From assembly GCA_028291345.1 (NCBI GenBank), contig JAQGIF010000390.1, positions 1-49,805 on the forward strand: a stretch of DNA of 49,805 nucleotides. Reading direction: 5' to 3'. The notes under the pieces were generated by a model. The model made no database searches, had not been told where the DNA came from, and saw nothing but the letters and a program-made list of their open reading frames with translations. Below, piece after piece: positions 764 to 19,634 of the stretch (its first letter is position 1; every line of letters begins with the position of its first letter). The stretch comes from Rhodospirillales bacterium (GTDB taxonomy: Bacteria > Pseudomonadota > Alphaproteobacteria > BOG-932 > Roseiterribacteraceae). The position numbers and the translations under genes are program-made.

Positions 764-2560
764 TCATTTTCGAGGCTGATCGGTCGCCTCGACATAGGGA
801 TAGAAAGTCGAAGGTTCGGTCGCTTTGATAAAGGACGTGGCCGCGGCCGTATTTGACTGCTTCGGCATGACCGATAAGTCCGGCTTAAACGGAACAACCT
901 TCCTGAACGCGGTCCAGGCTGCGGTGGTGCCGGGTCCGAATTCACGCGACGCATCCTGAGCCTTGCGAATATCCACCCAGAAGGCGCCCGCCAACAGATC
1001 GTGTCCCAACAGATCGAATGTCGTGCTGACAGCTTGGCTAACCCGGTAGGCTTTGATCCGCGTCTGCGCCTGCAGATCCTCGACCGTACCGACGATCGCC
1101 GCCCCGAACGGTGCGACCGGATTGGTCAAACTCTGAATCTCCTGCTGGAGATCGACCGGGTCATATCCACCAACACCGGCGAAAAAGCCACCTGTCTGAT
1201 CGTGCGGCACGACGTCCGACGCTTTGACGCCGGTGAAAAATGTGCTGCTAAAACGATCGATCCGCAGCATCACCGCTACGTCCATGTTGGCGAGAGCGAT
1301 AACGAATGCCTCCATTTTATTCGCCATCGGATAGGGATCCCAATTGGCATTGGAGACGATATAGCCATGCTTGCCTTTGCTGTTGGGCCCACCCTTTACG
1401 TAGTATTTCATCATCTGGGGCGTCGATAGCTCCCAGGAATCCGTCGGTGACAGATCGGTACGGACGGCCGGATTATGATCCGACGAATTCATCTGAAAGA
1501 TGATGCTGTCTTTAAGATCGGCCCAGGCTTCCCACGCCGACGCCTGGCGGATTGACGATGCGCGCAGGCTTTCAGGATCCTGGATGATTCGCTTCGGGTC
1601 GTCGCCGAACAGGTAGCTGCCCTTGATCATTCCCATTACGCGGGCGGCATCCCAATTCAGCCATTTTTCCGGACGTTCCCGCTGCACGACCAAGCTCAAT
1701 GGCGTGATGCTGCTATTCATTCCGTTCAAGTCCATGGCGTAGATCAGGTCCGCCCATTCCAACGCCCGGCGCGCGTCATGAGTCGCCAGCGCCGCGATCG
1801 CGGTCGAATAGGAGTTGCTGCTGGTCAAGGCATTATTGTCGGCGGCAAACGGCTGCATCGGTTTCAGCCCAGCCTTTGCCAAGGCCTCGGCTGCCGGCAT
1901 GCGCACACCCTGATAATAGGCGTCGCCGGCGCCGACCATCGTTCCGCCGATATTGCCCAGCGGAGAAAGATCGGCCTCTCCCAACGAACCGCGGGACTGC
2001 ACGACCGGTGTAATCCGCTTGTTGATCAGATCAATAAGCATCTGCGCCAGCTGGGGGCTCGGCGCATTATAGGTCATCCCATTGGCGCGGACGACCATCA
2101 TCGCCCGAACGATTTCTTCCTCCGTAACCTCCGGCCCCATCCCGCCAAGCGCGCTCATGCGGAACTCCGTCAGCAGGCTCCGCTCGATCTTTGGCTTATT
2201 CTCCGCCGACAGTGGATCGCCCGAGAAAATAACCGTCTCGCGCTGATCGCCTGCACCGCGATTGAACCAATAGACCGGAATTCCTTCGGCGGCGGCCTCG
2301 AGCAACAAACCGTAATGATCGGCCTCTCGCTGCACTGCCTCGGGACTGACCTGCACCTTTGCCCCATACCGCGCCACCTGAATAAGCTGATCGAGGGTGA
2401 GATCTTCGCCTGTAAGCGTGACCGTCATGTTCGCCATGGTCGGCGAGATTGGATTATAGGCGGGCGCCGCCTGAACCTGAGTATCCAGGCAGCTCAAGAG
2501 CGCGAGAACCGCCGCCGATGCCAAGGCGGTCCGAATACGAGGGCACGAAGCGTCAAGCAT
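764..2560 (-). CDS. Exported HAL/PAL-fold lyase lacking the MIO triad (paralogue 1)
   Basis: 598 aa. It has a Sec-type signal peptide (hydrophobic 11-25, cleavage after VQA near residue 31). The mature protein has the aromatic-ammonia-lyase fold landmarks: PVYWFNRGAG at 96-104 (Tyr97 matches the catalytic Tyr of YGVNTG in HAL), QDPESLR at 327-333, and MNSSDHNP near 357-364 (matches NSxTDNP). The stretch that should carry GSxGASGDLxPL reads GSLGEADLSPL (191-201): Ala-Ser-Gly is replaced by Glu-Ala with one residue missing, so the usual MIO cofactor cannot form. The flanks (ITPVVQSRGSLG) align well, so this is a real substitution. Inference: a beta-eliminase acting on a substrate with a good leaving group, plausibly a trimethylammonium betaine, in the periplasm; a non-catalytic binding role is the alternative. 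It lies 155 bp after paralogue 2 and has its own operator pair upstream. Confidence 0.8.
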   Translation of the reverse strand: MLDASCPRIRTALASAAVLALLSCLDTQVQAAPAYNPISPTMANMTVTLTGEDLTLDQLIQVARYGAKVQVSPEAVQREADHYGLLLEAAAEGIPVYWFNRGAGDQRETVIFSGDPLSAENKPKIERSLLTEFRMSALGGMGPEVTEEEIVRAMMVVRANGMTYNAPSPQLAQMLIDLINKRITPVVQSRGSLGEADLSPLGNIGGTMVGAGDAYYQGVRMPAAEALAKAGLKPMQPFAADNNALTSSNSYSTAIAALATHDARRALEWADLIYAMDLNGMNSSITPLSLVVQRERPEKWLNWDAARVMGMIKGSYLFGDDPKRIIQDPESLRASSIRQASAWEAWADLKDSIIFQMNSSDHNPAVRTDLSPTDSWELSTPQMMKYYVKGGPNSKGKHGYIVSNANWDPYPMANKMEAFVIALANMDVAVMLRIDRFSSTFFTGVKASDVVPHDQTGGFFAGVGGYDPVDLQQEIQSLTNPVAPFGAAIVGTVEDLQAQTRIKAYRVSQAVSTTFDLLGHDLLAGAFWVDIRKAQDASREFGPGTTAAWTAFRKVVPFKPDLSVMPKQSNTAAATSFIKATEPSTFYPYVEATDQPRK

Positions 2561-2610
2561 ATCTCACCCTATCCACCGATGCGCTCATGCGCGCGATCGG
2601 ATCAAAAAAT

Positions 2611-2643
2611 TTCTTTTAAGGAAAATTGCATTCTTGTCAGGAA
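2611..2643. promoter_or_regulatory. Two exact TTCYTNNNARGAA operators, 20 bp apart
   Basis: Upstream of the first exported HAL-like gene lie TTCTTTTAAGGAA (2611-2623) and TTCTTGTCAGGAA (2631-2643). Both match the palindrome TTCYTNNNARGAA exactly, with centres 20 bp apart, so two dimers could bind the same DNA face. The ATG is about 50 bp downstream. The same motif precedes other units in the window (see findings). The binding protein is unknown; the XRE-cupin regulator at 32010 is the best candidate. Confidence 0.65.
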
Positions 2644-2715
2644 TTTTCCATTCTAACCGGCAAGAGTCAACGGGTTTTCTCTGGAAAAAACTTTTATTGA
2701 TCGCTTTACTGTAAA

Positions 2716-4542
2716 TCAGTTTTTCCGGCTTGGAATAAGGCCTTCGCCGCCCGGCATAGCTTCGCCTTGACCACTGAACGCGGCCGCGGGCACCGCCTTC
2801 AAAAAACTATAGGCTGCCAGAGCGGGAGGCATAGTCGCAGGTTGTGTGGGATCCTGCCGCCACGGGATTACCTTGCGAAATGCCGTCCACGCGGCCGCCG
2901 GGGCGGGGCCAAAATTGCGCGAGGGATCCTGCGATCTGCGGATGTCCAGCCAATAGCTGGCCGTCAGCAAGTCCTGGCCCAACAGCTGTACCGTGTCATC
3001 GACTGCTTCGCGGGCACGCGCCACTTTGATATGTGTCTGCGCCTGTAAATCCTCGACTGTGGCGACAAGTGCAAAACCAGATGGCGGCAGCGGGTTGATC
3101 AGCGTTTGCACCTGCTGATACAGGTCGGCAGCGGTCTTGGCGTTGCCTTGTGGCGCATAGTCGCCGCTTTGCAGGACACCGGCCTGCGAATCCCCGGCAT
3201 GACCCTCCAGAATGTCGGCCGGCTTGATCACCGTGAAAAAGCTATTGCTGAAGCGATCCATCCGCAGCAATACCGCCACATCCATATTGGCCAGCGCAAT
3301 CGTGAAGGCCTCGATCTCATTGCCAAGGGGATATGGATCCCAATTTGCGTTTGAGAAAATGAATCCATGCTTCCCGCTACTATTCTTCCCGCCCTTCACG
3401 TAATATTTCAGCGCCTGCGGCGTCGACAATTCCCAGGCGTCTCCAGGCGACGCGTCGACAGTCACCGCTGGATTATGGTCCGAGTTATTCATCTGAATGA
3501 CGACCGTATCGCGCAAATGTCCCCAAGCCTGCCAAGCGGAGCCCTGGCGGATTGCCGACGCCCGCAGACTCTCGGGGTCCTGAATGATGCGCTTTGGATC
3601 GTCGTCGAAAAGATAGCTGCCCTTGATCATGCCGAGAACCCGGGCGGCTTCCCAATTCAGCCATTTATATGGCCGATTGGCCTGGATGGTACTGAAGAGA
3701 GGTGTGACGTTCGAGTTCATGCCGTTCAGGTCCATCGCATAAATCAGATCGGCCCACTCCAGCGAACGTCTTGCATCTTCCACTAATAGTGCCGCCTGCC
3801 CCGTCACATCGGCATTGACCGTACTGACGGTGCCGTCGCCCGGCGCGGGTTGCAGCGGGCTCAGGTGCGCGGCATTCAGCGCCTCTGCCGCCGACATGCT
3901 GACACCTCGATAATAGACTCCTCCAGACCCTACCATTGCCGCATTGACATTGCCGGACATCGGTCCGTCAGCTTCACCCGATCCACCCATCATGCGTGCA
4001 ACCGGCGTTATGCGGTTATTGAGTAAATCCACCAGTGCCTGAAGCAGCTGCGGGCTCGCCGGCAAATAGGTCATCGTATTCGCGCGTATGACCATTGCCG
4101 CACGAACGCTGTCCTCGTCGCCGATTTCAGAGCCCGTGCCGGATTTGGCGCCATTGCGAAACTGCATCAGCGCTTTTTCCTCCAGCTTCGGCTTGTTTTC
4201 CGGGGATAGCGGGTCACCCTCGAAGGTAGCGATTTCACGCTGATTGCCGGCTCCGCGATTAAAAAGATAAACGGGCATGCCCTCGGCTGCCGCTTCCATC
4301 ATCAACGCATGTGTATCGGCGGTACGTTGCATCGCCTCGGGGCTGACCCTGACCTTCGCGCCGTATCGCGCCACAGCTAAAACCTGATCGATGGTCAGAT
4401 CATGGCCGGTCAGAGTGACCGTCTTGTCAGCCATCGTCGGGTCGATCGGGTGATAATCCGGTGCCGCCAGCACGGTTGGCATCAGCAGGCACGAGAAAGC
4501 GATCAGTCCAAGGATCAGCAGATATCGATTGCGATGACGCAT
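2716..4542 (-). CDS. Exported HAL/PAL-fold lyase lacking the MIO triad (paralogue 2)
   Basis: 608 aa from the ATG at 4542. An upstream in-frame TTG at 4563 would add seven residues ahead of the signal peptide and looks wrong. The signal peptide runs MRHRNRYLLILGLIAF through VLA (cleavage near residue 26), then APDYHPI, the same mature start as the other two exported paralogues. Tyr92 sits in PVYLFNRGAG. IIQDPESLR and MNNSDHNP are conserved. The MIO region is GGSGEADGPM (186-195), with neither Ala-Ser-Gly nor the DLxPL that follows it in true HAL/PAL, so it is the most degraded of the four at this spot. Gene order suggests tandem duplication with the 764-2560 gene. The function inferred is the same, and equally unproven. 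Confidence 0.8.
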   Translation of the reverse strand: MRHRNRYLLILGLIAFSCLLMPTVLAAPDYHPIDPTMADKTVTLTGHDLTIDQVLAVARYGAKVRVSPEAMQRTADTHALMMEAAAEGMPVYLFNRGAGNQREIATFEGDPLSPENKPKLEEKALMQFRNGAKSGTGSEIGDEDSVRAAMVIRANTMTYLPASPQLLQALVDLLNNRITPVARMMGGSGEADGPMSGNVNAAMVGSGGVYYRGVSMSAAEALNAAHLSPLQPAPGDGTVSTVNADVTGQAALLVEDARRSLEWADLIYAMDLNGMNSNVTPLFSTIQANRPYKWLNWEAARVLGMIKGSYLFDDDPKRIIQDPESLRASAIRQGSAWQAWGHLRDTVVIQMNNSDHNPAVTVDASPGDAWELSTPQALKYYVKGGKNSSGKHGFIFSNANWDPYPLGNEIEAFTIALANMDVAVLLRMDRFSNSFFTVIKPADILEGHAGDSQAGVLQSGDYAPQGNAKTAADLYQQVQTLINPLPPSGFALVATVEDLQAQTHIKVARAREAVDDTVQLLGQDLLTASYWLDIRRSQDPSRNFGPAPAAAWTAFRKVIPWRQDPTQPATMPPALAAYSFLKAVPAAAFSGQGEAMPGGEGLIPSRKN

Positions 4543-4566
4543 GGTCGGGTGAGCCCCCGTCAAATA

Positions 4567-4765: not shown

Positions 4766-5716
4766 TTAAAGGATCGGATGGGACGGATGAAAAACCGGAC
4801 GGAATAAATATTTCCGGGCGATGTCACCGTAACCTCTGAATAGAAACTCTTGATTGCGGGCTAACAGGTCCGCTTTGTTTTCTCGATAGTAACACGGTAT
4901 TTCGTACCATGGCATCATCGGTTTCAGATGATGCGCGACATGAAGATTATTGTACAAAAAAACCAGCCCGAAGAACATATTGGACTCAACTGAGGCTGTG
5001 CGATGCTGCGGCAACTCCCCAGCCCTATGCTCGATGAACGCGCGTAAAAGCCCAAGGCTCATGCCTGGATAGGCGATCAATACAATATATTGCCACCATG
5101 GCATCTTGCAGAGGCCGGAGATGAAGGCAAACAGAATCCCGACAGCGACGGCATGGACAGCCCAGTGAGGAAGATGGCTGCGATCTCCGCGCCGAACGCG
5201 CCCGATCTCTCGGGTTGTCAGCTTCCATAGCCTCAGCAGCGGTCCGATGGACAGACGTCCAACCAGGGTCTGATTAAAGATCAGCAGGTTTCGCTGGATC
5301 GATCCCATACGCGCCCATTCCGCCTGGCTCACGTAATAGGTCTCGGTGTCCTCCCCGGGCACTGTCAGGTAATTATCCCGGTGATGAGTGCTGTGACTTT
5401 TGCGATAGAGCGGGAACGGAAACCAGAGTCCGAGCGGCGGAAACACAATCGCGAAACGGAGCCAATCCGGTACTCCCCGGAAAGCATGGATCGCCTCATG
5501 CTGCAGTGAAAACTGCCAAGCGATCAAATATGCGCCGATCAGCATCATCACCCACCAGGGCAGGACGGCATTATACCAGATCAGCAGCGCCCACGCGGTA
5601 TAGATGACAATGGCCAATAGCAAGGTTGGCCCATCGAACTGGCGAAACTTGCGGGCGATGAGTTCCACGTCACATCTCCAGACGTATCGATTGATGATGA
5701 AGAGTTGGTGGCACAT
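4766..5716 (-). CDS. Fatty-acid-desaturase-family membrane di-iron protein
   Basis: 316 aa if started at the ATG at 5716, which follows GAGGGA at a good distance and lies 9 bp after the upstream gene. A GTG at 5668 with GGAG upstream would give 300 aa and remove an atypical N-terminus. Three histidine boxes of the membrane FA_desaturase/hydroxylase family are visible: HEAIH, HSTHH and, near the C-terminus, HVAHH. Hydrophobic segments lie between them (LLLAIVIYTAWALLIWY, WVMMLIGAYLIAW and others). The family covers desaturases, carotenoid hydroxylases and some N-/C-oxygenases; the substrate cannot be read here. It is the last gene of a minus-strand run after the TonB receptor and the PhnD-like protein, so an oxidative step on the imported compound is possible. 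Confidence 0.75.
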   Translation of the reverse strand: MCHQLFIINRYVWRCDVELIARKFRQFDGPTLLLAIVIYTAWALLIWYNAVLPWWVMMLIGAYLIAWQFSLQHEAIHAFRGVPDWLRFAIVFPPLGLWFPFPLYRKSHSTHHRDNYLTVPGEDTETYYVSQAEWARMGSIQRNLLIFNQTLVGRLSIGPLLRLWKLTTREIGRVRRGDRSHLPHWAVHAVAVGILFAFISGLCKMPWWQYIVLIAYPGMSLGLLRAFIEHRAGELPQHRTASVESNMFFGLVFLYNNLHVAHHLKPMMPWYEIPCYYRENKADLLARNQEFLFRGYGDIARKYLFRPVFHPSHPIL

Positions 5717-5725
5717 TCCAATCCC

Positions 5726-6544
5726 TCAAGGGATAAGGGCCTGATGAATATCGGTTGCAAGCGGATGGCTTCGCCAAAAATCCAAGGTCGCCTGATATTC
5801 CCCCGGAAGCGCCGCGTAAGACGACGCGTCGGGTTCCACGAACCGGGTCAGAAGCAGATCTGACATTATTGCTGCTAGCGACGGATCCTGATGAGCCGTC
5901 AGAAATGCGGAGGCCAGTGATTCCCGTCGAGGCGGCGACGCCGCCAGAAATGGAATGGGCCGGGTATCGGTACGGGCGATGACTCGTATTTGAGACGTCA
6001 ACTCCGGCCGGAATTTTTTCAACAACTGAAACGCATAGGCATCGACCGGCGCCACCTCAGCCAGCCGGTCGATAACCGCGGTGATTGCGCCAACCGGCGT
6101 GATGCGGGGTTCGATGACCCGATCAAATAGTGGCTGCTGTCCACCGTATATTTTCAGTAAACGAAGAGGCGCGATATAGCCCGACTGCGAGTCTCGAACG
6201 GTCAAGGCAAGCCGACGGCCGAATGTATCGGGCAACGCCGCATAAGGGCTGTCGGCACGCACGACGAAGTCGGTCCAATATTGCGGCTTTCCGTCAAAGC
6301 CGGTGGGAGACGGGACCGGCGCGACAAGGATTTCCGGTTGGGATTTCGCCAAACTGTAAGGCAAGCCGCACATGAATACCGCAGCCATATCCTGCCTGGC
6401 CCATAAGTCGGATAGCGGTGCAGGCGCGGGATAGTCGATAAAATCGAGCCTCAAACCCGCGCGCTCACCAATCCGTTCGAACAGGCGCTTCCAGGCATCG
6501 CCGATCGCAGGAGCGACGGAATACATACGAGCATTTGCGATCAT
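5726..6544 (-). CDS. PhnD/transferrin-type substrate-binding-like protein, no signal peptide
   Basis: 272 aa, periplasmic-binding-protein-like (PhnD/SsuA class) fold. Visible features are the N-terminal strand with YSVAPAIGDAWKRLFERI, the hinge-type segment AAVFMCGLPYSLAKSQPEILVAPV, the central WTDFVVRADSPYAAL and DTFGRRLALTVRDSQSGY, and a C-terminal helix pair. Relatives in phosphonate/phosphite ABC systems carry a signal peptide; this one starts directly with the mature domain and no permease or ATPase lies nearby. It may therefore act in the cytoplasm as a ligand sensor or enzyme. The weak ribosome site leaves some doubt about the start, but no in-frame upstream extension shows a signal peptide. 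It sits between the TonB receptor and the desaturase-like gene. Confidence 0.6.
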   Translation of the reverse strand: MIANARMYSVAPAIGDAWKRLFERIGERAGLRLDFIDYPAPAPLSDLWARQDMAAVFMCGLPYSLAKSQPEILVAPVPSPTGFDGKPQYWTDFVVRADSPYAALPDTFGRRLALTVRDSQSGYIAPLRLLKIYGGQQPLFDRVIEPRITPVGAITAVIDRLAEVAPVDAYAFQLLKKFRPELTSQIRVIARTDTRPIPFLAASPPRRESLASAFLTAHQDPSLAAIMSDLLLTRFVEPDASSYAALPGEYQATLDFWRSHPLATDIHQALIP

Positions 6545-6672: not shown

Positions 6673-9543
6673 TTACGACGATGCTTCAGCAGCATAGACG
6701 ATTTGGACCCGCCGATTTTGTGGCTCCCTCACGCCATCACCGGTGGGAACTAGCAAGTCGCGCTTGCCTTTGGCGACGAGTTCGATCTCGCTGGAAGAGA
6801 TACCGTCCTTCTCCAACTGGGCCGCGACCGATTCCGCACGGCGGCGGGATAGGCGCATATTATACGCATCCGAGCCAACCGTATCCGTGTGACCAGTGAC
6901 GGTGAGCTGCGTTACCTTGGCCGGCCCGGCATTCTTCGCCGCCTGATCCACAATAGCTTCGGCCTGCGAAGTCAGATCCGATTTGTTGAAGTCGAAGAAT
7001 ACCAGATAGCTCTTCGGAACCGAAGGCGCCGGAGCGATCACCGGCGGCGGCACGTACGCCGCCGGGGTTTCATCGGACGTGGAACCCGCATCGAAATTAT
7101 ACTTCAACTCGATACCGACTTCACGCGGCCGACCAGGCGTCACGGTCACCAAGCCAAAGTTCCCATTCGAATCGCTCGAAGCACCTGTGTAGTAATATTT
7201 GCCGGTAAGATTGTTACCCCATACACCGACAGAATAAGAACCGTCGGGAGCCACATAAGTGAGCTTAGCACCGACAGTATAGTAAGCAGGCATATTCGCA
7301 AAAACAGGTGCGGTACCGGCGATCCTGCTATCAAGCCAACGGTAATTCAAATCGGCGACAAGGGCCGCATCCCACGGCAGATGGTACGTATAATCGACCG
7401 CGACACTTGCTTCCCAGGTCGGTGCGGTGGTCAACGGCGACTGTAATGTGATGCCGGTTTGGATCGCCTGGGGCGAAAGGGTATCATAACCCTGATTTAG
7501 GTACGCGGCATTCGCCCTGATCACGAGATCGGGCGTCGGCAGGGCTTCGACTTCGAGCTCGAAGCCGGATTCGTGAGCGGCGGCGGAGTTCACGATGCGG
7601 CGAGTTAAAGGAACAATTCCCGGCGCGATTACCGTCGCCTGAATATTTTGATAGTCCTGATAGAAACCAGTCGCATTGATTCTCAGTCGGTGTTCGAGCC
7701 ATTCGCTCTTGATGCCAGCTTCGTAGTCCCAAACACGCTCCTTACCGAACGGACTCATCCCGTTTTGAAATTGCAATCCGACCGGCACCAGCTGTGTATT
7801 GAAACCGCCGCTCTGATAGCCGCCGGTGACGCTGACATAGGTCATGAACTCCGGAGTCCACTGATAGTCGAGTTGGAAACGCGGGTCGAAATCATAGTAG
7901 CTGGCGGCGGCACGTTGCCGCGCGCCGGGTCCCGGGCCAGGCAGATAATAGCCGCCCTTGCCGTTAAAAAAGCCATCGGTGAAATAGACATAGGGAACAG
8001 GGGTTATATACCCCCCTCCCGGCAGGTAGGTTGGATCTCCCAGGGCGTTCCAGAGGACGGATTCGACGCTCTTGCGATCGTAAGAATAGCGGGCACCCGC
8101 AGTGGCGCTGAGTTGGTCAGTGATCTTATAGGTAGCCTGCGCGTAAACGGCGTCACTCTCAAAGTTCTCCGAATCGAGGAACGAGTAGCCGGTCGCATCG
8201 CCATCGAAATCTGGCCCGGTGTTCTGGGCAAATCCAGAACTCTGATTTACATAGACCGCGCCGACAACAAATGTCAGCGCCCCGTCCCAATAGTTACCGG
8301 ATAGATTGAGCTCTTCACTCGTCTGTTCCGTGGTCGTTGCATCTTCTTCGCAATAGATGCAAAGCGGGGTGCCACCATCGCCTGCTTCACCCGACATCGC
8401 TCTAAGACTGCTACGGCGGAAGCCGGTCACCGACTTCAGCGAGAGATTCTCGTCCAGAGCATAATTAATCCGAAGATTGATGGTTCCGACCTCGACTTTG
8501 GTAAACGGCGCCTCATGCCCAAAATACGGATCGACTTTTCCAGCCTGGAAGCCTCCCGGCAACGTGTTGGTCGGCACTGCCGCGAACGGCGTCCCCGTCA
8601 CCTGATACTGCTTCCCGATGATGGGAAATGTCTGGCAATATGTTGGCTGACCCGGATGAGTGGCATTGTAATTCCCGGTCGCATAAGCGCCGTCGTGGCA
8701 GCCTGTGACGATGCTGGCATTGCCGTGGTCTTTATGGCGATCGTACTCGCCAAGTAAGTTGATGCTCAAATCGTCCGTTGGCTTAACCAAGAACTGTATA
8801 CGGCCGGATTTCTCATCCAAATCATCACTTTTCACAGAGTCCAGCTTATGATCGATGTAGCCATCGACATTTGAGCTCATGAAGCTTACGCGAACCGCAA
8901 ATTTATCGGTGACGGGTACGTTGATGGCGCCTTCTGCATCGATCCGATTATACTCACCGACCCGCACATCGACATAGCCGCCGAATGTATCCTTGGGCTG
9001 CTGAGTGTCCAACAAAAGGGCACCGCCGATTGTGTTCTTACCGAACAATGTGCCTTGCGGACCTTTTAGGATCTGCACATTCGCAACATCGTAAAAGCTT
9101 AGAAGCTGGCCTTCGACCCGGGAGATATAGAGATCGTCGAGATAAAAGCCGACCCCCGGATCGAGATTGGGCACGAGAGCGTTCTGACCGATACCGCGGA
9201 TGGTAATCGGATTCGCGGCGCGACCGAAATTGCTATAGGACGTAATTTCGAAATTTGGGGCTAGTCCTCGCAGATCGCTGATGTCATGCACATTTTGCTG
9301 TTGCAGTTGCGCAGCGGAAAAAGCCGTTATTGAAATCGGCGTTTTCTGGATATCCTCAGAACGCCTTCTCGCCGTAACAGTAATTTCTTCCAGTGCCGGA
9401 GCGCCCGCCGCCGCGGCTTGGTCTCCTGTGGAAGTTTGCGCCATCGCCGGCAGCATCGTCAAAACCGACACGGACGCCGCTGACGTCATCAGCAATCCCA
9501 ACAACCGATTTCCGGGCGTCAATTTACCGCGCCGATCACCCAT
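6673..9543 (-). CDS. TonB-dependent outer-membrane receptor fused to a C-terminal OmpA domain
   Basis: 956 aa from the ATG at 9543, preceded by AAGGA at about 9 nt; an ATG at 9552 has no spacing to that site. The signal peptide ends ...MLPAMA. TonB box EEITVTARRR is followed by the plug (GGALLLDTQQPKD region) and a long beta-barrel with LTGKYYYTG and the typical C-terminal PGRPREVGIELKYNF, where such receptors normally stop. Here a Pro-rich linker (VPPPVIAPAPSVPK) leads into a full OmpA-C domain (845-956): YLVFFDFNKSDL, TGHTDTVGS, NMRLSRRRA, EPQNRRV. This domain normally binds peptidoglycan. A TonB barrel with its own wall anchor is unusual. The ligand is unknown; context suggests a quaternary amine or its carrier. 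Confidence 0.9.
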   Translation of the reverse strand: MGDRRGKLTPGNRLLGLLMTSAASVSVLTMLPAMAQTSTGDQAAAAGAPALEEITVTARRRSEDIQKTPISITAFSAAQLQQQNVHDISDLRGLAPNFEITSYSNFGRAANPITIRGIGQNALVPNLDPGVGFYLDDLYISRVEGQLLSFYDVANVQILKGPQGTLFGKNTIGGALLLDTQQPKDTFGGYVDVRVGEYNRIDAEGAINVPVTDKFAVRVSFMSSNVDGYIDHKLDSVKSDDLDEKSGRIQFLVKPTDDLSINLLGEYDRHKDHGNASIVTGCHDGAYATGNYNATHPGQPTYCQTFPIIGKQYQVTGTPFAAVPTNTLPGGFQAGKVDPYFGHEAPFTKVEVGTINLRINYALDENLSLKSVTGFRRSSLRAMSGEAGDGGTPLCIYCEEDATTTEQTSEELNLSGNYWDGALTFVVGAVYVNQSSGFAQNTGPDFDGDATGYSFLDSENFESDAVYAQATYKITDQLSATAGARYSYDRKSVESVLWNALGDPTYLPGGGYITPVPYVYFTDGFFNGKGGYYLPGPGPGARQRAAASYYDFDPRFQLDYQWTPEFMTYVSVTGGYQSGGFNTQLVPVGLQFQNGMSPFGKERVWDYEAGIKSEWLEHRLRINATGFYQDYQNIQATVIAPGIVPLTRRIVNSAAAHESGFELEVEALPTPDLVIRANAAYLNQGYDTLSPQAIQTGITLQSPLTTAPTWEASVAVDYTYHLPWDAALVADLNYRWLDSRIAGTAPVFANMPAYYTVGAKLTYVAPDGSYSVGVWGNNLTGKYYYTGASSDSNGNFGLVTVTPGRPREVGIELKYNFDAGSTSDETPAAYVPPPVIAPAPSVPKSYLVFFDFNKSDLTSQAEAIVDQAAKNAGPAKVTQLTVTGHTDTVGSDAYNMRLSRRRAESVAAQLEKDGISSSEIELVAKGKRDLLVPTGDGVREPQNRRVQIVYAAEASS

Positions 9544-9590
9544 AGCTGACATTCCTTCTCGCCTCGGCCGGCAGGTATTGCATCGCAAAA

Positions 9591-9862: not shown

Positions 9863-11449
9863 ATGTCCACCGCCGATATGATGTTCGAATCCGCGAAGAA
9901 GGCGTTTGTCGCAGACGATATGGCAACGGCGGAAAGGCTGTGCCGATCGATTATTGCGATTTCCCCCCGCGATGCCCGCCCATGGATCATCCTGACGGAC
10001 ATCACGCTTCGACAAGATCGCCCCAAGGATGCCCTTGTGTGGGCTGAAAAAGCGGTATCACTGAACCAAGGCGACCCCTTCGCCTATCTGGTTAGGGTCA
10101 AATGCTTGATCGCACTAGGTCGGCTCAATGAAGCCAGGGAGACTGCCGAAGCCGGAGTTAGAATCAAACGATGTCCGCCAGTAGCGCTTGACGAATTCGG
10201 CAGAACCTTCAGTCAACTCGGTCGGTACAAACGCTCGCTCGAAGTCCTTAAAATGGCAGTTGCCGCCGAACCGAGAAACTTCCTGTTTCTCTATAATCTG
10301 GCGATTGCGGAACGGACATTTGGCGCGCTCGCCGATTCTGAACGGCATTGCGACCAAGTCGTGGCCATCAACCCTCATTTTCATCGCGCGTATTTTATTC
10401 GAGCCGATCTGCGCAAACAGACGTCTCATCGGAACCATATCCCAGAAATGGAGGCACTGATCGCGCGTGGCGTTCGTGACCCTTACGGTGAGGTATTAAT
10501 GCGTTTCGCGCTGGGTAAGGAGTGCGAGGATATCGGCGAGGATGCTCGCGCCTTTCGGCATATTAAATCTGGTGGCGATCTTCATCGTCGGCATCTCCGC
10601 TACGATGTCCAAAACGACATTGCCGTAATCGATCGTCTGATCGATACCCAAAGTCGACCGGCCCTCAAGGCGATGCCGAAAGGTTTCGACGGCGACGACC
10701 CGATCTTCATTGTCGGACTGCCACGATCCGGAACGACGCTGGTCGAACGGATTGTCGCGGGGCACAGCAATGTAGCCGCAGCCGGCGAACTGGGAGCCTT
10801 CACGACCGAATTAATGCGCGCCACGAAGACAGACGTGCGAACCCACCCGGCAGGCTGGATCGATCGCCTGGCGTCGATGGATCCGGCGGTCCTTGGCGCG
10901 GGCTATTCACGGGTTGCCCGAGAAACCGGAATTCCGTCTTCCCTCCGCTTTACAGATAAATATCCGCCGAACTTTCTCTATTGCGGGGCCATCCATGCGG
11001 CGCTGCCGAATGCCAAGATTATTACTGTAAAGCGTGACCCGATGGATACTTGCTTTGCACTCTATAAGGCGCATTTCGCAAACGGCGCGTACCCCTACTC
11101 ATATAAACTGGACGAATTGGCGGATTATTACTTGGCATTCCGTCGCCTGATAGAACACTGGAAGGTCTCTCTCCCCGCCCATAGTTTCCTGGAAGTTTCC
11201 TATGAGCACATTGTCAGCGATCTGGAAAAACAGAGCCGTCGAATCCTGGCGTTTCTTGGACTTTCTTGGCAGGGCGAAGTCATGAACTTCCACGAAAGCA
11301 AAAGCCCTGCAACGACTGCTAGCGCGGTCCAGATCCGCCAACCGATCTACACATCATCCGTCGGAAGATGGCGGCGGCACGCAGCAGCTCTCGAGCCTCT
11401 GCGAACGCGCCTGGCGGCGGTGCTGCCGCCAGGCGAAATCGACGTCTAA
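9863..11449 (+). CDS. TPR-containing sulfotransferase-family protein
   Basis: 528 aa. Residues 1-190 are tetratricopeptide-like helical repeats (for example ERLCRSIIAISPRDARPW and HCDQVVAINPHFHRAY). From about residue 275 a sulfotransferase domain begins: the PAPS 5'-phosphosulfate loop IFIVGLPRSGTTLVERI, then TDKYPPNF, and the 3'-phosphate region IITVKRDPMDTCFALYK. No signal peptide, so cytoplasmic. ATG follows GGTGAGAG. It is divergent from the TonB receptor and convergent, by only 5 bp, with the third exported HAL-like gene. Such TPR-sulfotransferases are common beside TonB receptors in alphaproteobacteria, where their acceptor is mostly unknown; I cannot assign one. Confidence 0.82.
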   Translation: MSTADMMFESAKKAFVADDMATAERLCRSIIAISPRDARPWIILTDITLRQDRPKDALVWAEKAVSLNQGDPFAYLVRVKCLIALGRLNEARETAEAGVRIKRCPPVALDEFGRTFSQLGRYKRSLEVLKMAVAAEPRNFLFLYNLAIAERTFGALADSERHCDQVVAINPHFHRAYFIRADLRKQTSHRNHIPEMEALIARGVRDPYGEVLMRFALGKECEDIGEDARAFRHIKSGGDLHRRHLRYDVQNDIAVIDRLIDTQSRPALKAMPKGFDGDDPIFIVGLPRSGTTLVERIVAGHSNVAAAGELGAFTTELMRATKTDVRTHPAGWIDRLASMDPAVLGAGYSRVARETGIPSSLRFTDKYPPNFLYCGAIHAALPNAKIITVKRDPMDTCFALYKAHFANGAYPYSYKLDELADYYLAFRRLIEHWKVSLPAHSFLEVSYEHIVSDLEKQSRRILAFLGLSWQGEVMNFHESKSPATTASAVQIRQPIYTSSVGRWRRHAAALEPLRTRLAAVLPPGEIDV

Positions 11450-11454
11450 CTCGG

Positions 11455-13251
11455 CTATTTCTTTGCGGCAGCTTCCAGGTCGAAGCGCTCTCCATCGGTT
11501 GTCGGCATCGCTGGACCCGCAGGATAAAAGCTCTCGGGCGACATCGATTTGAGGAATTCATAAGCGACTACGCTGAAGGGCAGATTTGGCCTGGTCTCGA
11601 TATCCTGTTGAAACGGCACGGTCTTGCGAAAAGCAGTCCAGACCGCAGTCGGTACCTGCCCAAAGCTGCGGCTTGGTCCTTCCGCCTTGCGGACGTCCAT
11701 CCAATAAGTTGAGGTCAAAAGGTCATAGGCCAGAAGTTGCATCGTCAGATCGATAACCTGTCTGCCCCGAGAGCCTTTAAGGCGCGTCTGCGCCTCAATA
11801 TCCGCGACTCCAATGTCGGATGCGTTACCCTCCGGCGTCAGTGAATGCGAGAGGCTCTGGATTTCCTGCCACACATCCATGAACGCGAAATACGGCTCAA
11901 GCATAGTGGGAGACGCTTCGATTTGAGCAGATGTGAGGACGTCGGCGATCTTGATTCCGGTGAAGAAAGCGGTCGGTCCCCTGTCGCTGAACCGCTCGAT
12001 CCGCTGTGCCACTGCCGCATCCATATTCGCGATGGCGTTGCTGAAGGCCTCGATCTCGTTCGCCATTGGATATGGATCCCAATTGGCATTGGAGAATACA
12101 TAGCCATGCTGGCCATGGCTGAGCGGGCCGCCCTTAACGTAATATTTCATGAATTGGGGAGTCGCCAGTTCCCAGGAGTCGGAGGGCGATGCGCCAACGA
12201 TGAACGCTGGATTCTGCTCACCCGAATTGATCTGAACCAGGACATTGTCGCGCAACGACGCCCAGGCCTGCCATGCCGAGCCCTGTCGAATATACGAGGC
12301 GCGCATGCTTTCCGGGTCCTGGAGAATCCTCTTAGGATCATCCTCGAACAGATAGCTTCCACGCAGCATGTCCATCAGGCGCGCCGCATCCCATGCCACC
12401 CATTTGAACGGCCGCTTTGCCTGAACCGGTGTCGATAGCGGCGTAAGGCTGGAATTCATGCTCAGCTTATCCATCGCATGGATCAAATCAGCCCATTCCA
12501 GGGCAGTCCGTCCATCGGCGACCAAAAGGGTCGCCAGAGCATCCGCGTAGGAATTGCTGGTGCCGCCGCCGGGCTCCGTCGAAAGTGGCTTCAATCCAGC
12601 CTTTGTCAGCGCCTCGCCGGCATTCATTCGTACGCCCTGATAATAGGCGTCGCCGCCGCCGGCCATGGTGGCCAGGAAATTGCTTGTCAGGAACAGGTCG
12701 CCTTCGCCAAGGGTGCCACGGGAATACATGACGGGCGTTACGCGCTTATTCAGCAGATCGACGATCATCTGCATGAATTCAGGAGTCGCCGCCTCATAGG
12801 GAACGCTGTTGGCGCGAATGACCAGGAAGGCACGGACCAGGTCCTCATCACCAATCTCAGGCAAAACACCCTCGCGCGCGCCATGCTTCATCTGGGCAAT
12901 CCGCCGCGTCTCTTCGTCGTGGGTGACCACTTCGCGCAATGCGCCGCCGCCGCGATTGAGTCCATAAACCGGCATACCCTCCGCCCCGGCTTCCTGTCGC
13001 AGGCCGTTGCCATCGCTGGCATGTTGGATCGCCTCAGGACTATATTGCACTTTGGCGCCGTAGCGGGCGACCTCGACCACCTGCTCAATCGTCAGATCGT
13101 GGCCGGTAATGGTGACTGTCTTGTTCTCCTTTCTCGGCATGATCGGATGGTATTCCGGTGCGGCGACGGCCAGCGAACTCAATCCCAGGGCGACAAAAAC
13201 GTAAGCCGCGCCAAGGATCGGAAAAGCGTGATTTCGAGACTTCAAGCGCAT
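11455..13251 (-). CDS. Exported HAL/PAL-fold lyase lacking the MIO triad (paralogue 3)
   Basis: 598 aa from the ATG at 13251, which has AGGAG 8 nt upstream; an in-frame GTG at 13269 is less likely. Signal peptide to AVA (about residue 30), then APEYHPI as in paralogues 1 and 2. Tyr96 lies in PVYGLNRGGG. ILQDPESMR and INSGEQNP (the NSxTDNP position) are present but diverged. The MIO position reads GTLGEGDLFL (179-188): again no Ala-Ser-Gly, with Glu-Gly in its place. It is separated from the other two by the receptor and sulfotransferase genes and sits beside the UbiD/UbiX/amidohydrolase genes. That placement fits an eliminase whose unsaturated acid product is decarboxylated later. Diverged NSxTDNP suggests a different substrate from paralogues 1 and 2. 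Confidence 0.8.
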   Translation of the reverse strand: MRLKSRNHAFPILGAAYVFVALGLSSLAVAAPEYHPIMPRKENKTVTITGHDLTIEQVVEVARYGAKVQYSPEAIQHASDGNGLRQEAGAEGMPVYGLNRGGGALREVVTHDEETRRIAQMKHGAREGVLPEIGDEDLVRAFLVIRANSVPYEAATPEFMQMIVDLLNKRVTPVMYSRGTLGEGDLFLTSNFLATMAGGGDAYYQGVRMNAGEALTKAGLKPLSTEPGGGTSNSYADALATLLVADGRTALEWADLIHAMDKLSMNSSLTPLSTPVQAKRPFKWVAWDAARLMDMLRGSYLFEDDPKRILQDPESMRASYIRQGSAWQAWASLRDNVLVQINSGEQNPAFIVGASPSDSWELATPQFMKYYVKGGPLSHGQHGYVFSNANWDPYPMANEIEAFSNAIANMDAAVAQRIERFSDRGPTAFFTGIKIADVLTSAQIEASPTMLEPYFAFMDVWQEIQSLSHSLTPEGNASDIGVADIEAQTRLKGSRGRQVIDLTMQLLAYDLLTSTYWMDVRKAEGPSRSFGQVPTAVWTAFRKTVPFQQDIETRPNLPFSVVAYEFLKSMSPESFYPAGPAMPTTDGERFDLEAAAKK

Positions 13252-13315
13252 ATGGGCGGCTCCTGACACGTCAGCCGGACGCGGCGCGCATCGCCGATCA
13301 AGCGAGATGATAAGT

Positions 13316-14651: not shown

Positions 14652-15267
14652 CGGCCTCGATCTGCGAGGCTGGGACGGTAGCAACATCTGTAGGCCACCG
14701 CTTCAATGCACCGACCTCGATACCCAGTACATCAAGCGCACGCGCTGCCGTTTGGGTGACCAAATCCCCAATCGTCTGTGGGTGCGTATAAAATGTCGGG
14801 ACTGGCGGCATGACGATCGCGCCATAGCGCGTCACATTGGCCATCAGCTCGATATGACCGAGATGCAGCGGCGTCTCGCGTAGCATGAGGACCAGACGAC
14901 GGCGTTCCTTCAGGCACACATCAGCGGCGCGAACGATCAGATTATCGCCGAGCGAGACCGCGATCGCGCCGAGCGTGCGCGCCGAGCAGGGGGCGATCAG
15001 CATGCCCTCAACCTTAAAAGACCCGCTGGCCAGCGGGTCGCCGATATCGCGAAAATTATGGCGATAGTCCGCCAAGGCCTCGACCTCGCGCAGCGGCATA
15101 TCGGTTTCTTCGGAGATCGTGCGCGCGCCCGCTGGTGAAACCACTAGATGCGTCTCATGCCTTCCAAGTTCCCGCAATAAGCGCAAAGCTTCGATTCCAT
15201 AGACCGCGCCGGACGCACCGGAAATGGCGATGATAATGCGCGGCCGTGCACTCACGACTTCAGCCAT
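14638..15267 (-). CDS. ubiX: UbiX/Pad1-family flavin prenyltransferase
   Basis: About 209 aa from the ATG at 15267; an ATG at 15303 would add 12 residues. It makes prenylated FMN from FMN and dimethylallyl phosphate, the cofactor of UbiD decarboxylases. Motifs: IIIAISGASGAVYG (FMN phosphate loop), APCSARTLGAIA, and RETPLHLGHIELMA followed by YGAIVMPPVPTFY, all diagnostic. It overlaps the end of the UbiD-type gene upstream and the start of the M20 gene downstream, so the three form one operon. A pathway-dedicated rather than ubiquinone role is inferred from this linkage. Confidence 0.9.
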   Translation of the reverse strand: MAEVVSARPRIIIAISGASGAVYGIEALRLLRELGRHETHLVVSPAGARTISEETDMPLREVEALADYRHNFRDIGDPLASGSFKVEGMLIAPCSARTLGAIAVSLGDNLIVRAADVCLKERRRLVLMLRETPLHLGHIELMANVTRYGAIVMPPVPTFYTHPQTIGDLVTQTAARALDVLGIEVGALKRWPTDVATVPASQIEADDDA

Positions 15268-16637
15268 TTGCGCTGGTCGCGCGGCAGGTTCTCGGTGAAC
15301 CATTTTTTAGCCGCTTCCCGATATGCCAGCGGCGGCAGGGCGCGATCGACGCCTTCGACACGGTCGTTCGCCTTAGCCGTCGCGTCGAACCCGACTTTCG
15401 TCACCAGACCGCCCTGTTCCATCGGCTCCGATCTGTCGGTTCCGGCCTGGGGAATCAGCAACAAATCCCGTTCGAGCTTCATCCGGTTCGTCCGTGCCCA
15501 TTCGACCGCGACGGGATCCCAGGGATCGATATCGGCGTCGACGACCGTCACCCGCTTCACGATACTGACCGCGGCAAAGACTGCGAACATGGCCCGCCGC
15601 GGCTGACCGGGCCCGGCGCCGGCGATCTGGATCACCACGTCGGTGCGCCCGGCGCCGGCCTCAGTTACCGCAACTTCGCGCACATTGGGAATAACGGCCG
15701 CTAGAGTATTGAAAAGGCTTGCCGCGATCGGCAAGGCACCGAGATATATATGCTCGCGATGATAGCCAGGCTCGATCACCTGGAAAATAGCGTCTTCGCG
15801 ACGGGTTAGCGCCGAGAACCGCGCCAAATAGCCGGAGCCGTAATTTTCATACATGCCGTGATATTCCGAGACAAATCCTTCTTCGATCGGCTGATTTGCA
15901 TCGATCGTACCTTCGAGCACCAATTCCGCATCCGCTGGCACCATCAAATCGACTGTCTTCGCGGGCACCACACCAACTGGGTTCCCGAGCAGGCTGCCCG
16001 CGCATTCCATCTCATCGTCGCCGACGCCGAGATATAGGCAGGCGGCCAGCTGTATTGCCGGATGAGCCCCGATGATCACGGCAATTTCAAGCGGTTTTCC
16101 AACCGCCGCCGCGCGCCGGGAAAACAGGGCCAGATGATGGTTTGGAGCGATCCCGACCATGGCGGTATCTCCGTTCAAAATGGCAAAGCGCGCGAAGGAT
16201 GCGTTGCCGCGCCCTGTCTCCGGGTCCCGCGCGACGATCACACCGGCGGTGATATAAGGACGGCTTTCGCGTTCGAAAAAGGTCGGTACCGGCAAACCGC
16301 TGAGCGGGGCCTCGCGTTCGACTACCTGTTGAACGACACCATTATCCACTCGCACCGGTTTGACCGGCGCACGGATCGCCTGATGGATACGCGGCAGAAT
16401 TTCGGCGATCTCGATGCCCAGGGCAGCGGCGATACGCGCTCGTCCGTTCAGGAGATTACCGGCGACCCTGAGCTTCGATCCAACGACAGACTCAAATAGT
16501 AATGACGGTCCGGCATCGGCGGCGGACAGGAAGGCTGAAAGTTCGAAATGCGGATCGACCTGCTTGGCAACCCGCACGAGATCACCGGTATTTTCAAGGT
16601 AAGTCAGAAATGGGCGTATGGACTGCCGATCGCTCAT
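15252..16637 (-). CDS. UbiD-family prenyl-FMN-dependent decarboxylase
   Basis: 461 aa, full length for the family. It removes CO2 reversibly from alpha,beta-unsaturated or aromatic acids. Visible are the substrate-side Arg region GNASFARFAILNGD, IAPNHHLALF, and the catalytic acidic pair in IEEGFVSEYHGMYENYG (Glu...Glu of the ERE triad). Start ATG at 16637; its ribosome site is weak. First gene of the UbiD-UbiX-M20 operon; the 246 bp upstream hold no feature I can name. Fdc-like members decarboxylate cinnamate-type acids, which is exactly the product class of HAL-fold lyases, so a (thio)urocanate- or arylacrylate-type substrate is an attractive guess. Hydroxybenzoate-type activity is the default alternative. 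Confidence 0.88.
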   Translation of the reverse strand: MSDRQSIRPFLTYLENTGDLVRVAKQVDPHFELSAFLSAADAGPSLLFESVVGSKLRVAGNLLNGRARIAAALGIEIAEILPRIHQAIRAPVKPVRVDNGVVQQVVEREAPLSGLPVPTFFERESRPYITAGVIVARDPETGRGNASFARFAILNGDTAMVGIAPNHHLALFSRRAAAVGKPLEIAVIIGAHPAIQLAACLYLGVGDDEMECAGSLLGNPVGVVPAKTVDLMVPADAELVLEGTIDANQPIEEGFVSEYHGMYENYGSGYLARFSALTRREDAIFQVIEPGYHREHIYLGALPIAASLFNTLAAVIPNVREVAVTEAGAGRTDVVIQIAGAGPGQPRRAMFAVFAAVSIVKRVTVVDADIDPWDPVAVEWARTNRMKLERDLLLIPQAGTDRSEPMEQGGLVTKVGFDATAKANDRVEGVDRALPPLAYREAAKKWFTENLPRDQRKWLKS

Positions 16638-17876: not shown

Positions 17877-18158
17877 GAAAATACTGAAAATTAGTACCTT
17901 TGTCGATCACGAAAACACGCATAAGCTTTGTGAAGAAAATTATTCATATAAACGAATCAGGCTGGTACGGGGAATTCGCTTGCGCGGAGATTGATTTGAA
18001 CTGCAGTTCGTTAAGTCCAGTAACTTTTATCAATTTGGTATCTTATCTCATCCACGATTTGGACAATCTCGCCACACGAAGCCTGATCGAAACGTTCAGC
18101 AGCTATGCGCGAAACCTGTTTTGCCGTCGCGAGACCGCCTTTACCGAGGCGGCATAAA

Positions 18159-19634
18159 ATGGCCGTCCTCCTGACCACACGGCAAGACATCAACCTAGAC
18201 ACCACCTATCGGGTCGCATGGCAGAGGGAATCGGTGCGAATCGCCGGTACGGCGCTCGACCGCATTGCGGCCTGCCGTGGATCGTTCCTCGAGTTAATCG
18301 ATAAAGATCCCGACGTCATCATCTATGGCGTTACCACCGCCATGGGCGAGTTGGCGAGCCATCGCCTAAGCCTCGAATATCGCGAGCGCCACGCACGCAT
18401 CAAACCATACCCAGCCGCGACATCGTTCGGCGACTACCTGCCGGACCGTGTAGTCCGCGGCATCGTTTTCGCGCGACTTGCGAATTTCCTCGAAGGCCAT
18501 GCAGCGACGACGCCTCGGATAGCCATGTCAGTCGCGGCTATGCTTGATGGAGGTCCGATGCCTGCCGTGGCCGCATCCGGCCAAGGTGGCGCAGGGGAGA
18601 TTTTGGCTCTCTATCCCCTGTTTGCCGAGCTTTCGACACAGTTCGAACTCGAGGTCAGGGAGCGCGGGTCGCTTATCAACGGCTCCCCCTGCGCGGCCGC
18701 CTTGACTGCCGACACAGCCTTGACTGCGCGCCGGCGCATTCAATTGGCGCTCAAAACCTTTGCATTGTCGATTGAGGCGTTCCGCGCGCCGCTGGAGCAC
18801 TACGACAACGCGTTGGACGATCTATGGGGTGACGAACACGAAGCGGCCGCGCTCGCCGGCCTGCGAATGTATCTGATTGGTGCATGCGAGGGCCGCCGCA
18901 ATTATCAGGCACCGGTCAGCTATCGCATTCTCCCCAGATTGCTTGGGCACGCCTATCGCGCCCTGGCGGCGGCCGAGCGCGCGGCAACCGTATCTTTGTC
19001 GTCGGTTTCGGATAATCCGGTATACATCGCGCCGGACGCCACGCACCCCTATGGCCGGTGCATCAGTACCGGCGGCTATCACAATGCCATGGCTGCGCCG
19101 GCGATGGACGATCTGTCCGCCATCTGGGCAGATTTGAGTCTGCTGGCAAGCCGGCAGGCCGCGAAGCTGCTGGACGGTCGCGCATCCCATATGCCGGACA
19201 TGCTGGTGATCGGACGCGAGCCAGGCGAGAGCGATGGGCGCGGCAATATCGGCTATATCCCGATGACCATGAGCGGCTATCTGGAACAGGCGAAATCGGC
19301 GGCGCAGACCACTTTCATTCCTGGCAGCGACACTGGCGGCGCGGGACAGGACGATGTTGGAACACCAGCCTTTCTGGCTTGGTCTAAAGAAGCGAAAGCC
19401 GGTCAGTGCCTCGACGCCTCGCTCGCCATGTTGGCGGTTATCGCGTCCCAGGCGCTTTACATCACCGGCCGGCAGGCCCCACTGCACTTGCGCGACTTCA
19501 TGGACATGGTGCGTGGCACAGTTCGACCGGTGGCCGAAGACCGTATTCTGGGGCCCGAACTGGAACGGCTGACCGACAACTTCACGGAGCAAGTCTTCAC
19601 CGTGGACGAAGAGTTGGAATTGGCTGTCGCGTGA
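18159..19634 (+). CDS. Cytoplasmic HAL-fold lyase lacking the aligned MIO triad; ergothionase-like candidate
   Basis: 491 aa from the ATG at 18159 (GAGG about 10 nt upstream). No signal peptide. HAL landmarks: YGVTTAMGELA (catalytic Tyr56), INGSP at 173-177, SSVSDNPVYI near 281-290, RNYQAPVSYR, and a C-terminal QDDVG where HAL has EDHVS. Ungapped alignment of GPMPAVAASGQGGAGEILA with GVTPVVPSxGSVGASGDLA puts Ala-Gly-Glu (145-147) at the MIO position. A literal Ala-Ser-Gly occurs six residues earlier (139-141) and is the main reason for caution. The loop after it is about 25 residues shorter than in HAL. Paired with a MetR-like regulator and upstream of a TMA-degradation cluster, it is best explained as a trimethylamine-releasing lyase for an aromatic betaine such as ergothioneine or hercynine. 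Confidence 0.72.
   Translation: MAVLLTTRQDINLDTTYRVAWQRESVRIAGTALDRIAACRGSFLELIDKDPDVIIYGVTTAMGELASHRLSLEYRERHARIKPYPAATSFGDYLPDRVVRGIVFARLANFLEGHAATTPRIAMSVAAMLDGGPMPAVAASGQGGAGEILALYPLFAELSTQFELEVRERGSLINGSPCAAALTADTALTARRRIQLALKTFALSIEAFRAPLEHYDNALDDLWGDEHEAAALAGLRMYLIGACEGRRNYQAPVSYRILPRLLGHAYRALAAAERAATVSLSSVSDNPVYIAPDATHPYGRCISTGGYHNAMAAPAMDDLSAIWADLSLLASRQAAKLLDGRASHMPDMLVIGREPGESDGRGNIGYIPMTMSGYLEQAKSAAQTTFIPGSDTGGAGQDDVGTPAFLAWSKEAKAGQCLDASLAMLAVIASQALYITGRQAPLHLRDFMDMVRGTVRPVAEDRILGPELERLTDNFTEQVFTVDEELELAVA

Follow-up and report, generated by a model that had tools for sequence, protein, structure and literature searches.

TonB-dependent receptors (TBDTs) are commonly portrayed as barrels with a free end, dragged through the membrane or confined to islands within it; a typical TBDT stops at its last barrel strand. 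Both termini of a TBDT barrel face the periplasm. A barrel followed by a Pro-rich linker and a C-terminal OmpA domain is the arrangement of OmpA and OprF, in which the barrel has 8 strands. In the OmpM proteins of diderm Firmicutes, nutrient uptake and tethering of the outer membrane to peptidoglycan are genetically linked (PMC10628300). Here we analysed a 49,805-nucleotide stretch of DNA (the window; contig JAQGIF010000390.1) from a Rhodospirillales bacterium of BOG-932, a soil/bog lineage of Alphaproteobacteria, family Roseiterribacteraceae. Unlike typical TBDTs, a receptor encoded in the window runs on past its last strand into a linker and an OmpA-C domain, and it differs from OmpA and OprF in that its barrel is that of a TonB-dependent transporter.

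The receptor gene is a single frame that opens with ATG at 9543, closes with TAA at 6673–6675 and is free of interruptions; alternative starts in the same frame exist at 9552 (ATG) and 9588 (TTG) (Table 1). A Ton-box-like segment, LEEITVTARR, recognized by eye, follows the signal-peptide-like N terminus and precedes the plug. Plug and barrel both score above the Pfam cut-off, the barrel profile (TonB_dep_Rec_b-barrel, PF00593) matching residues 334–779 with an E-value of 9.1e-33, and the fold search agrees. After the last barrel strand, PREVGIELKYNF, the sequence continues with DAGSTSDETPAAYVPPPVIAPAPSVPKSYLVFFDF. A Pro- and Ala-rich linker of about 27 residues separates this strand from the OmpA domain, whose Pfam match (residues 849–944, E 2.6e-19) spans all 98 profile positions. 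An earlier note on this DNA had described a receptor and a complete OmpA-C domain in one frame, and the Pfam matches to Plug, barrel and OmpA, with the domain starting at about residue 845, bear it out. Neither an SLH domain nor a porin barrel is among the receptor's Pfam matches. By Pfam and fold search alike, the barrel is of the TBDT type, not the 8-strand OmpA type.

Table 1. Receptor gene, its parts and neighboring genes (window positions; residues are those of the receptor)
Feature	Position	Strand	Basis
TonB-dependent receptor with C-terminal OmpA domain (P0001)	6673..9543	-	Open frame, 956 aa; Pfam; AlphaFold2 fold match
Signal-peptide-like N terminus, residues 1-35	9439..9543	-	By eye from sequence
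Plug domain, residues 65-175	9019..9351	-	Pfam PF07715, E 1.7e-15
Transmembrane beta-barrel, about residues 186-817	7093..8988	-	Pfam PF00593; AlphaFold2 strands
Pro-rich periplasmic linker, about residues 818-844, PAAYVPPPVIAPAPSVPKS	7012..7092	-	Sequence; linker type recurs in other fusions
OmpA-C peptidoglycan-binding domain (predicted), residues 845-950	6694..7011	-	Pfam PF00691; separate model; Foldseek
Phosphonate-type periplasmic substrate-binding protein, downstream	5726..6544	-	Pfam PF12974
Fatty acid desaturase family, downstream	4766..5716	-	Pfam PF00487
Two aromatic amino acid lyase (HAL/PAL family) genes	764..4563	-	Pfam PF00221
TPR-sulfotransferase, divergent neighbor	9863..11449	+	Pfam PF13469 + TPR
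Aromatic amino acid lyase (HAL/PAL family)	11455-13269	-	Pfam PF00221
Aromatic amino acid lyase (HAL/PAL family), partial by Pfam	18105-19634	+	Pfam PF00221

Structural modeling gave a similar picture. In the full-length AlphaFold2 model, built on a 26-row alignment, plug and barrel strands are confident up to residue 817, with pLDDT above 90 at many positions. The OmpA tail of the same model is poor (mean pLDDT 68.5) because the aligned tails are too alike to inform it. A Foldseek search with the receptor model returned TonB receptors, the best match being FyuA (4epa; TM-score 0.87 by target length), and Fiu was also among the nearest solved structures. The OmpA part modeled alone with a diverse alignment reached a pLDDT of 81.8, and its Foldseek matches included the C-terminal domain of OprF (5u1h), Pal (1oap) and A. 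baumannii OmpA with a diaminopimelate peptide (3td5), with 2hqs and 4r40 also among them.

The residues expected to line the diaminopimelate pocket are present. Asp 887 (6883–6885) and Arg 902 (6838–6840), the counterparts of the pair with which OmpA holds diaminopimelate, are 15 residues apart, like Asp 241 and Arg 256 in E. coli OmpA, and the pocket residues align with those of Pal. Moreover, Asp 887, Asn 895, Arg 902 and the neighboring Gly are invariant in 55 of the 55 complete fusions described below. Since the termini of a TBDT are periplasmic, the OmpA domain lies on the side of the membrane from which peptidoglycan can be reached. With both pocket residues, Asp and Arg, kept throughout and a fold of the peptidoglycan-binding type, an anchored receptor, as the earlier note had suggested, is the natural reading of sequence and modeled fold. 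The conserved pocket, together with a linker resembling that of OmpA itself, leads us to predict that the receptor should bind peptidoglycan non-covalently.

The four aromatic amino acid lyase genes lie within 19 kb, in the company of a UbiD-type decarboxylase (15252–16637), a LysR regulator and an M20 peptidase. Together they may make up a pathway for aromatic amino acids or cinnamate. The closest paralogue of the receptor in its own genome (C301, 58% identical) also adjoins aromatic amino acid lyase genes. Guessing from such neighbors, the substrate is perhaps an aromatic compound. Farther along the window (25533–48531), there are genes for an OYE/trimethylamine-dehydrogenase-like protein, HODM/DmmA-like dimethylamine monooxygenase subunits, glutamate-synthase-like, glutamine-synthetase-like and sarcosine-oxidase-alpha-like proteins, and FolD, a set that suggests the use of methylated amines.

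We then asked how widespread this architecture is. The genome from which the window comes (G000; 5.63 Mb in 401 contigs, 97% complete) encodes 64 plug domains and 39 OmpA domains. At least 28 TBDT–OmpA fusions are found among them, 25 complete and three cut at contig ends (C37, C65 and C86), so the receptor is not a one-off. Besides the receptor in the window, at least 27 others in this genome have the architecture, in addition to those of relatives. Fusions make up about 44% of the plug-bearing receptors. Over half of the receptors therefore do without the 3′ cassette, that is, the linker end plus the OmpA domain, which indicates that it is dispensable for TonB-dependent uptake. In one further receptor (C252; L167 8303–11029, plus strand), a TAG stop falls exactly at the junction and the cassette stays open behind it; this may be a receptor that naturally lacks the tail, or else an error.

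The relatives found by sequence are the bog_932 MAG and an alpine-bog MAG. They are the two MAGs belonging to BOG-932, a lineage of order rank whose first isolate is Roseiterribacter gracilis (PMC11164329); sister-genus genome G003 is probably that of R. gracilis. Complete long-frame fusions number 26 in the window genome and 19 in G001 (one in each being an autotransporter), eight in G002, which is incomplete, and one each in G003 and G004. The 55 complete fusions served as the set for the pocket-residue count. The single fusion of G003, a near-complete genome in three contigs, lies at G003:C1:732412-735057 on the minus strand.

Outside the family, no full-length match to the junction profile was among those listed for the sampled 385 alphaproteobacterial and 398 pseudomonadotal genomes, with at most 5–6 candidates scored per genome and a profile whose barrel half is tuned to the BOG-932 family. 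Elsewhere, the matches listed covered the OmpA part only, nearly all in frames of 200–560 residues. Three long OmpA frames from outside the family were rejected as TBDT fusions: L254 and L255 are autotransporters and the third is an 8-strand porin. A long frame in G516 has no recognizable OmpA tail, and the loci in G045 and G399 yielded no frame that could be interpreted. Bacteroidota have many long OmpA frames, which the junction profile has no power to resolve. A TBDT–OmpA fusion in an 'Acidobacteria' MAG (L097) was set aside as probably a mis-binned contig, since just one contig of that MAG bears such genes. We found no description of TBDT–OmpA fusions in the open-access literature. The earlier note had named proof that the architecture is common as a refutation: common it is inside the BOG-932 family, but outside, it is absent from the matches listed in the sampled genomes. 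The domains are known ones, their combination is uncommon and lineage-wide, and the dynamics of the cassette are unusual.

These dynamics emerge when barrels and cassettes are compared separately. Barrel identity between unrelated fusions of the same genome is about 23%, and cassette identity is 88–91%. The tree of barrels requires 27 changes of the genome label (shuffled mean 23.3), with orthologues pairing across species. On the tree of all OmpA cassettes, which takes in stand-alone OmpA copies, the label needs 14 changes (shuffled mean 34.9), and genomes cluster. For fusion cassettes alone at third codon positions, the number is eight (shuffled mean 22.3, minimum 18). Two pairs show the effect directly: the barrels of C160 and C359 are 17% identical and those of C388 and C392 33% identical, with cassette DNA identities of 93.5% and 96.6%, respectively. 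In both pairs, the DNA is unrelated before the linker and past the stop codon. The fusion trait itself is scattered. On a tree of 63 TBDTs (61 from the window genome plus two sister-genus fusions, cassette removed), it requires 15 changes, 12 of them forced by well-supported branches, and close paralogues occur with and without the cassette. Diverse barrels, similar cassettes and a scattered trait together indicate that the cassette was gained or lost many times and partly homogenized; the sequences point to gene conversion combined with repeated gain or loss.

The extent of conversion should be read with care. At four-fold sites, cassette identity is 0.52–0.58 within genomes and 0.50–0.51 between non-orthologues, against a barrel background of 0.41; in the window genome, it is 0.52 within versus 0.51 between genomes. 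Since these sites have mostly diverged, purifying selection accounts for a large part of the cassette likeness at the protein level, and conversion is patchy or old and least evident in the window genome. Given this divergence, recent conversion of all copies is not supported. Recent wholesale duplication of whole genes was rejected as the source of the cassette likeness, as barrels pair by orthologue across species. The evidence for conversion is direct for certain pairs and otherwise statistical, consisting of the third-position clustering. In addition, the assemblies of the fusion-rich genus are fragmented, with several contigs breaking off within the cassette, and some apparent conversion tracts could be products of local mis-assembly. 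The OmpA domain of the sister-genus fusion groups with stand-alone OmpA proteins of its own genus, and the barrel of this fusion shares about 22% identity with those of the other fusions, which suggests, with moderate support, a second, independent fusion.

Cassette variants are also present on other barrels of the window genome. An autotransporter barrel carries one at its C terminus (C327; L178 6193–8949, plus strand), as does another at G001:C206. A PagL lipid A deacylase continues into an OmpA domain in one frame (C54; L186 2904–3821, minus strand). A BBP2-type porin barrel is preceded by an OmpA domain according to Pfam (C220; L185 1–1464, minus strand); in L213 and L214, the OmpA domain has the same early position within a long frame. 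Finally, the 8-strand OmpA porin C310 (L182, 390 residues) bears a variant; among OmpA domains that are not part of a fusion it comes nearest, at about 80% identity. Orphan OmpA cassettes occur at G001:C234 and G002:C373; orphans beside complete fusions were seen at L194 7796–8101 (plus strand) and at the start of L062.

Taken together, the data make it likely that the receptor belongs to a family of peptidoglycan-anchored TBDTs that combine uptake with outer-membrane tethering and share a cassette homogenized by conversion, the anchoring being predicted from sequence. According to this model, the barrel would import its substrate with TonB energy, and the flexible Pro-rich linker would lead to a periplasmic OmpA domain that binds peptidoglycan non-covalently, most likely via the diaminopimelate side chain. 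The cassette probably derives from a resident 8-stranded OmpA porin; it would have been gained and lost repeatedly and homogenized by gene conversion, as the barrels diversified for different substrates. Each receptor would then be both a transporter and a non-covalent fastener that holds the outer membrane to the cell wall, and a large part of the transporter repertoire would double as a tethering system. The broader idea that in Bog-932/Roseiterribacteraceae the nutrient-receptor repertoire took over outer-membrane tethering, through one interchangeable, conversion-homogenized cassette on tens of barrels, is more tentative, and we lean slightly against it. Other candidate tethers exist besides the fused receptors, since the window genome also encodes a Pal-like OmpA lipoprotein as well as OmpA porins.

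Could the receptor and an OmpA gene have been joined by a sequencing or assembly artefact? The assembly is fragmented, and contigs C37, C65, C86 and C164 start or end within the cassette. The junction nevertheless recurs in tens of genes, in three independent assemblies of the genus and in the three-contig genome of the sister genus, which makes an artefact extremely improbable. The sequencing error or missing stop that the earlier note had named as a possible undoing is thereby dismissed, given the same junction in at least 27 other receptors and in two independently assembled sister-species genomes. A different possibility is that the anchor aids the receptor by immobilizing the barrel, by providing a counter-hold against the pull of TonB or, as the earlier note had proposed, by keeping it near TonB–ExbBD; the note had also envisaged that the anchor could hold the receptor close to wall-bound substrate. 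The domain is in the appropriate compartment and on nearly half of the TBDTs, and with TonB_C domains in only about 3 to 5 frames, the receptors must share or compete for TonB. However, autotransporter, PagL and porins, none of which uses TonB, bear cassette variants too, and closely related receptors exist in both forms. A general envelope role is therefore likelier than receptor-specific aid, which we regard as rather unlikely.

Homogenized cassettes next to highly diverse barrels, their repeated gain or loss and the orphan copies in G001 and G002 would also fit a cassette that serves mainly as a recombination platform, through which new barrels are swapped into expressed loci under pressure from phages, bacteriocins or shifts in substrate, and in which anchoring plays the lesser part. 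Yet the protein is conserved while synonymous sites have diverged, a sign of selection on the OmpA domain itself, and the pocket residues are never lost, so we give this explanation little credence. We think it similarly improbable that the OmpA part binds another partner, such as TolB, BAM or a periplasmic chaperone, instead of peptidoglycan and serves assembly or division-site targeting. Pal-type domains do bind TolB, with 2hqs and 4r40 among the fold matches, and Pal is reportedly a component of the Caulobacter BAM complex; but all pocket residues are retained and the nearest solved relatives are peptidoglycan-binding domains. Peptidoglycan-anchored receptors remain our preferred reading.

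If the receptor repertoire did take over tethering, a proteobacterium would have coupled the mechanics of its envelope genetically to substrate uptake. A lineage that has apparently bolted dozens of receptors to the wall offers a natural test of whether immobilization helps or hinders TonB transport, and the cultured relative R. gracilis, apparently with a single fusion, makes the question testable. The fused receptors are also a case for how outer-membrane tethering evolves, and it is unusual for bacteria to show concerted evolution of one domain across tens of outer-membrane barrels that are otherwise unrelated.

How does the receptor compare with known proteins? With TonB-dependent receptors such as FyuA and Fiu, it shares the signal-peptide-like N terminus, the plug and the 22-strand-type barrel, as well as a Ton-box-like segment that is a candidate for contact with TonB. 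Lipoproteins of the Pal/YfiB type have the same OmpA fold and pocket, but are lipid-anchored and lack a barrel. The autotransporter–OmpA proteins L254 and L255, from two other alphaproteobacterial genomes, also place an OmpA-C domain after a non-OmpA barrel and a Pro-rich linker; their barrels, however, are those of autotransporters, and they are unrelated to the BOG-932 autotransporter fusions. OmpM is the closest parallel in role, a role that we infer here from sequence: a single protein, present as several paralogues, for both uptake and tethering. The two are not homologous. OmpM works passively, as a trimeric porin, and carries an SLH domain at its N terminus, whereas the receptor described here is a presumably energized TBDT with a C-terminal OmpA domain.
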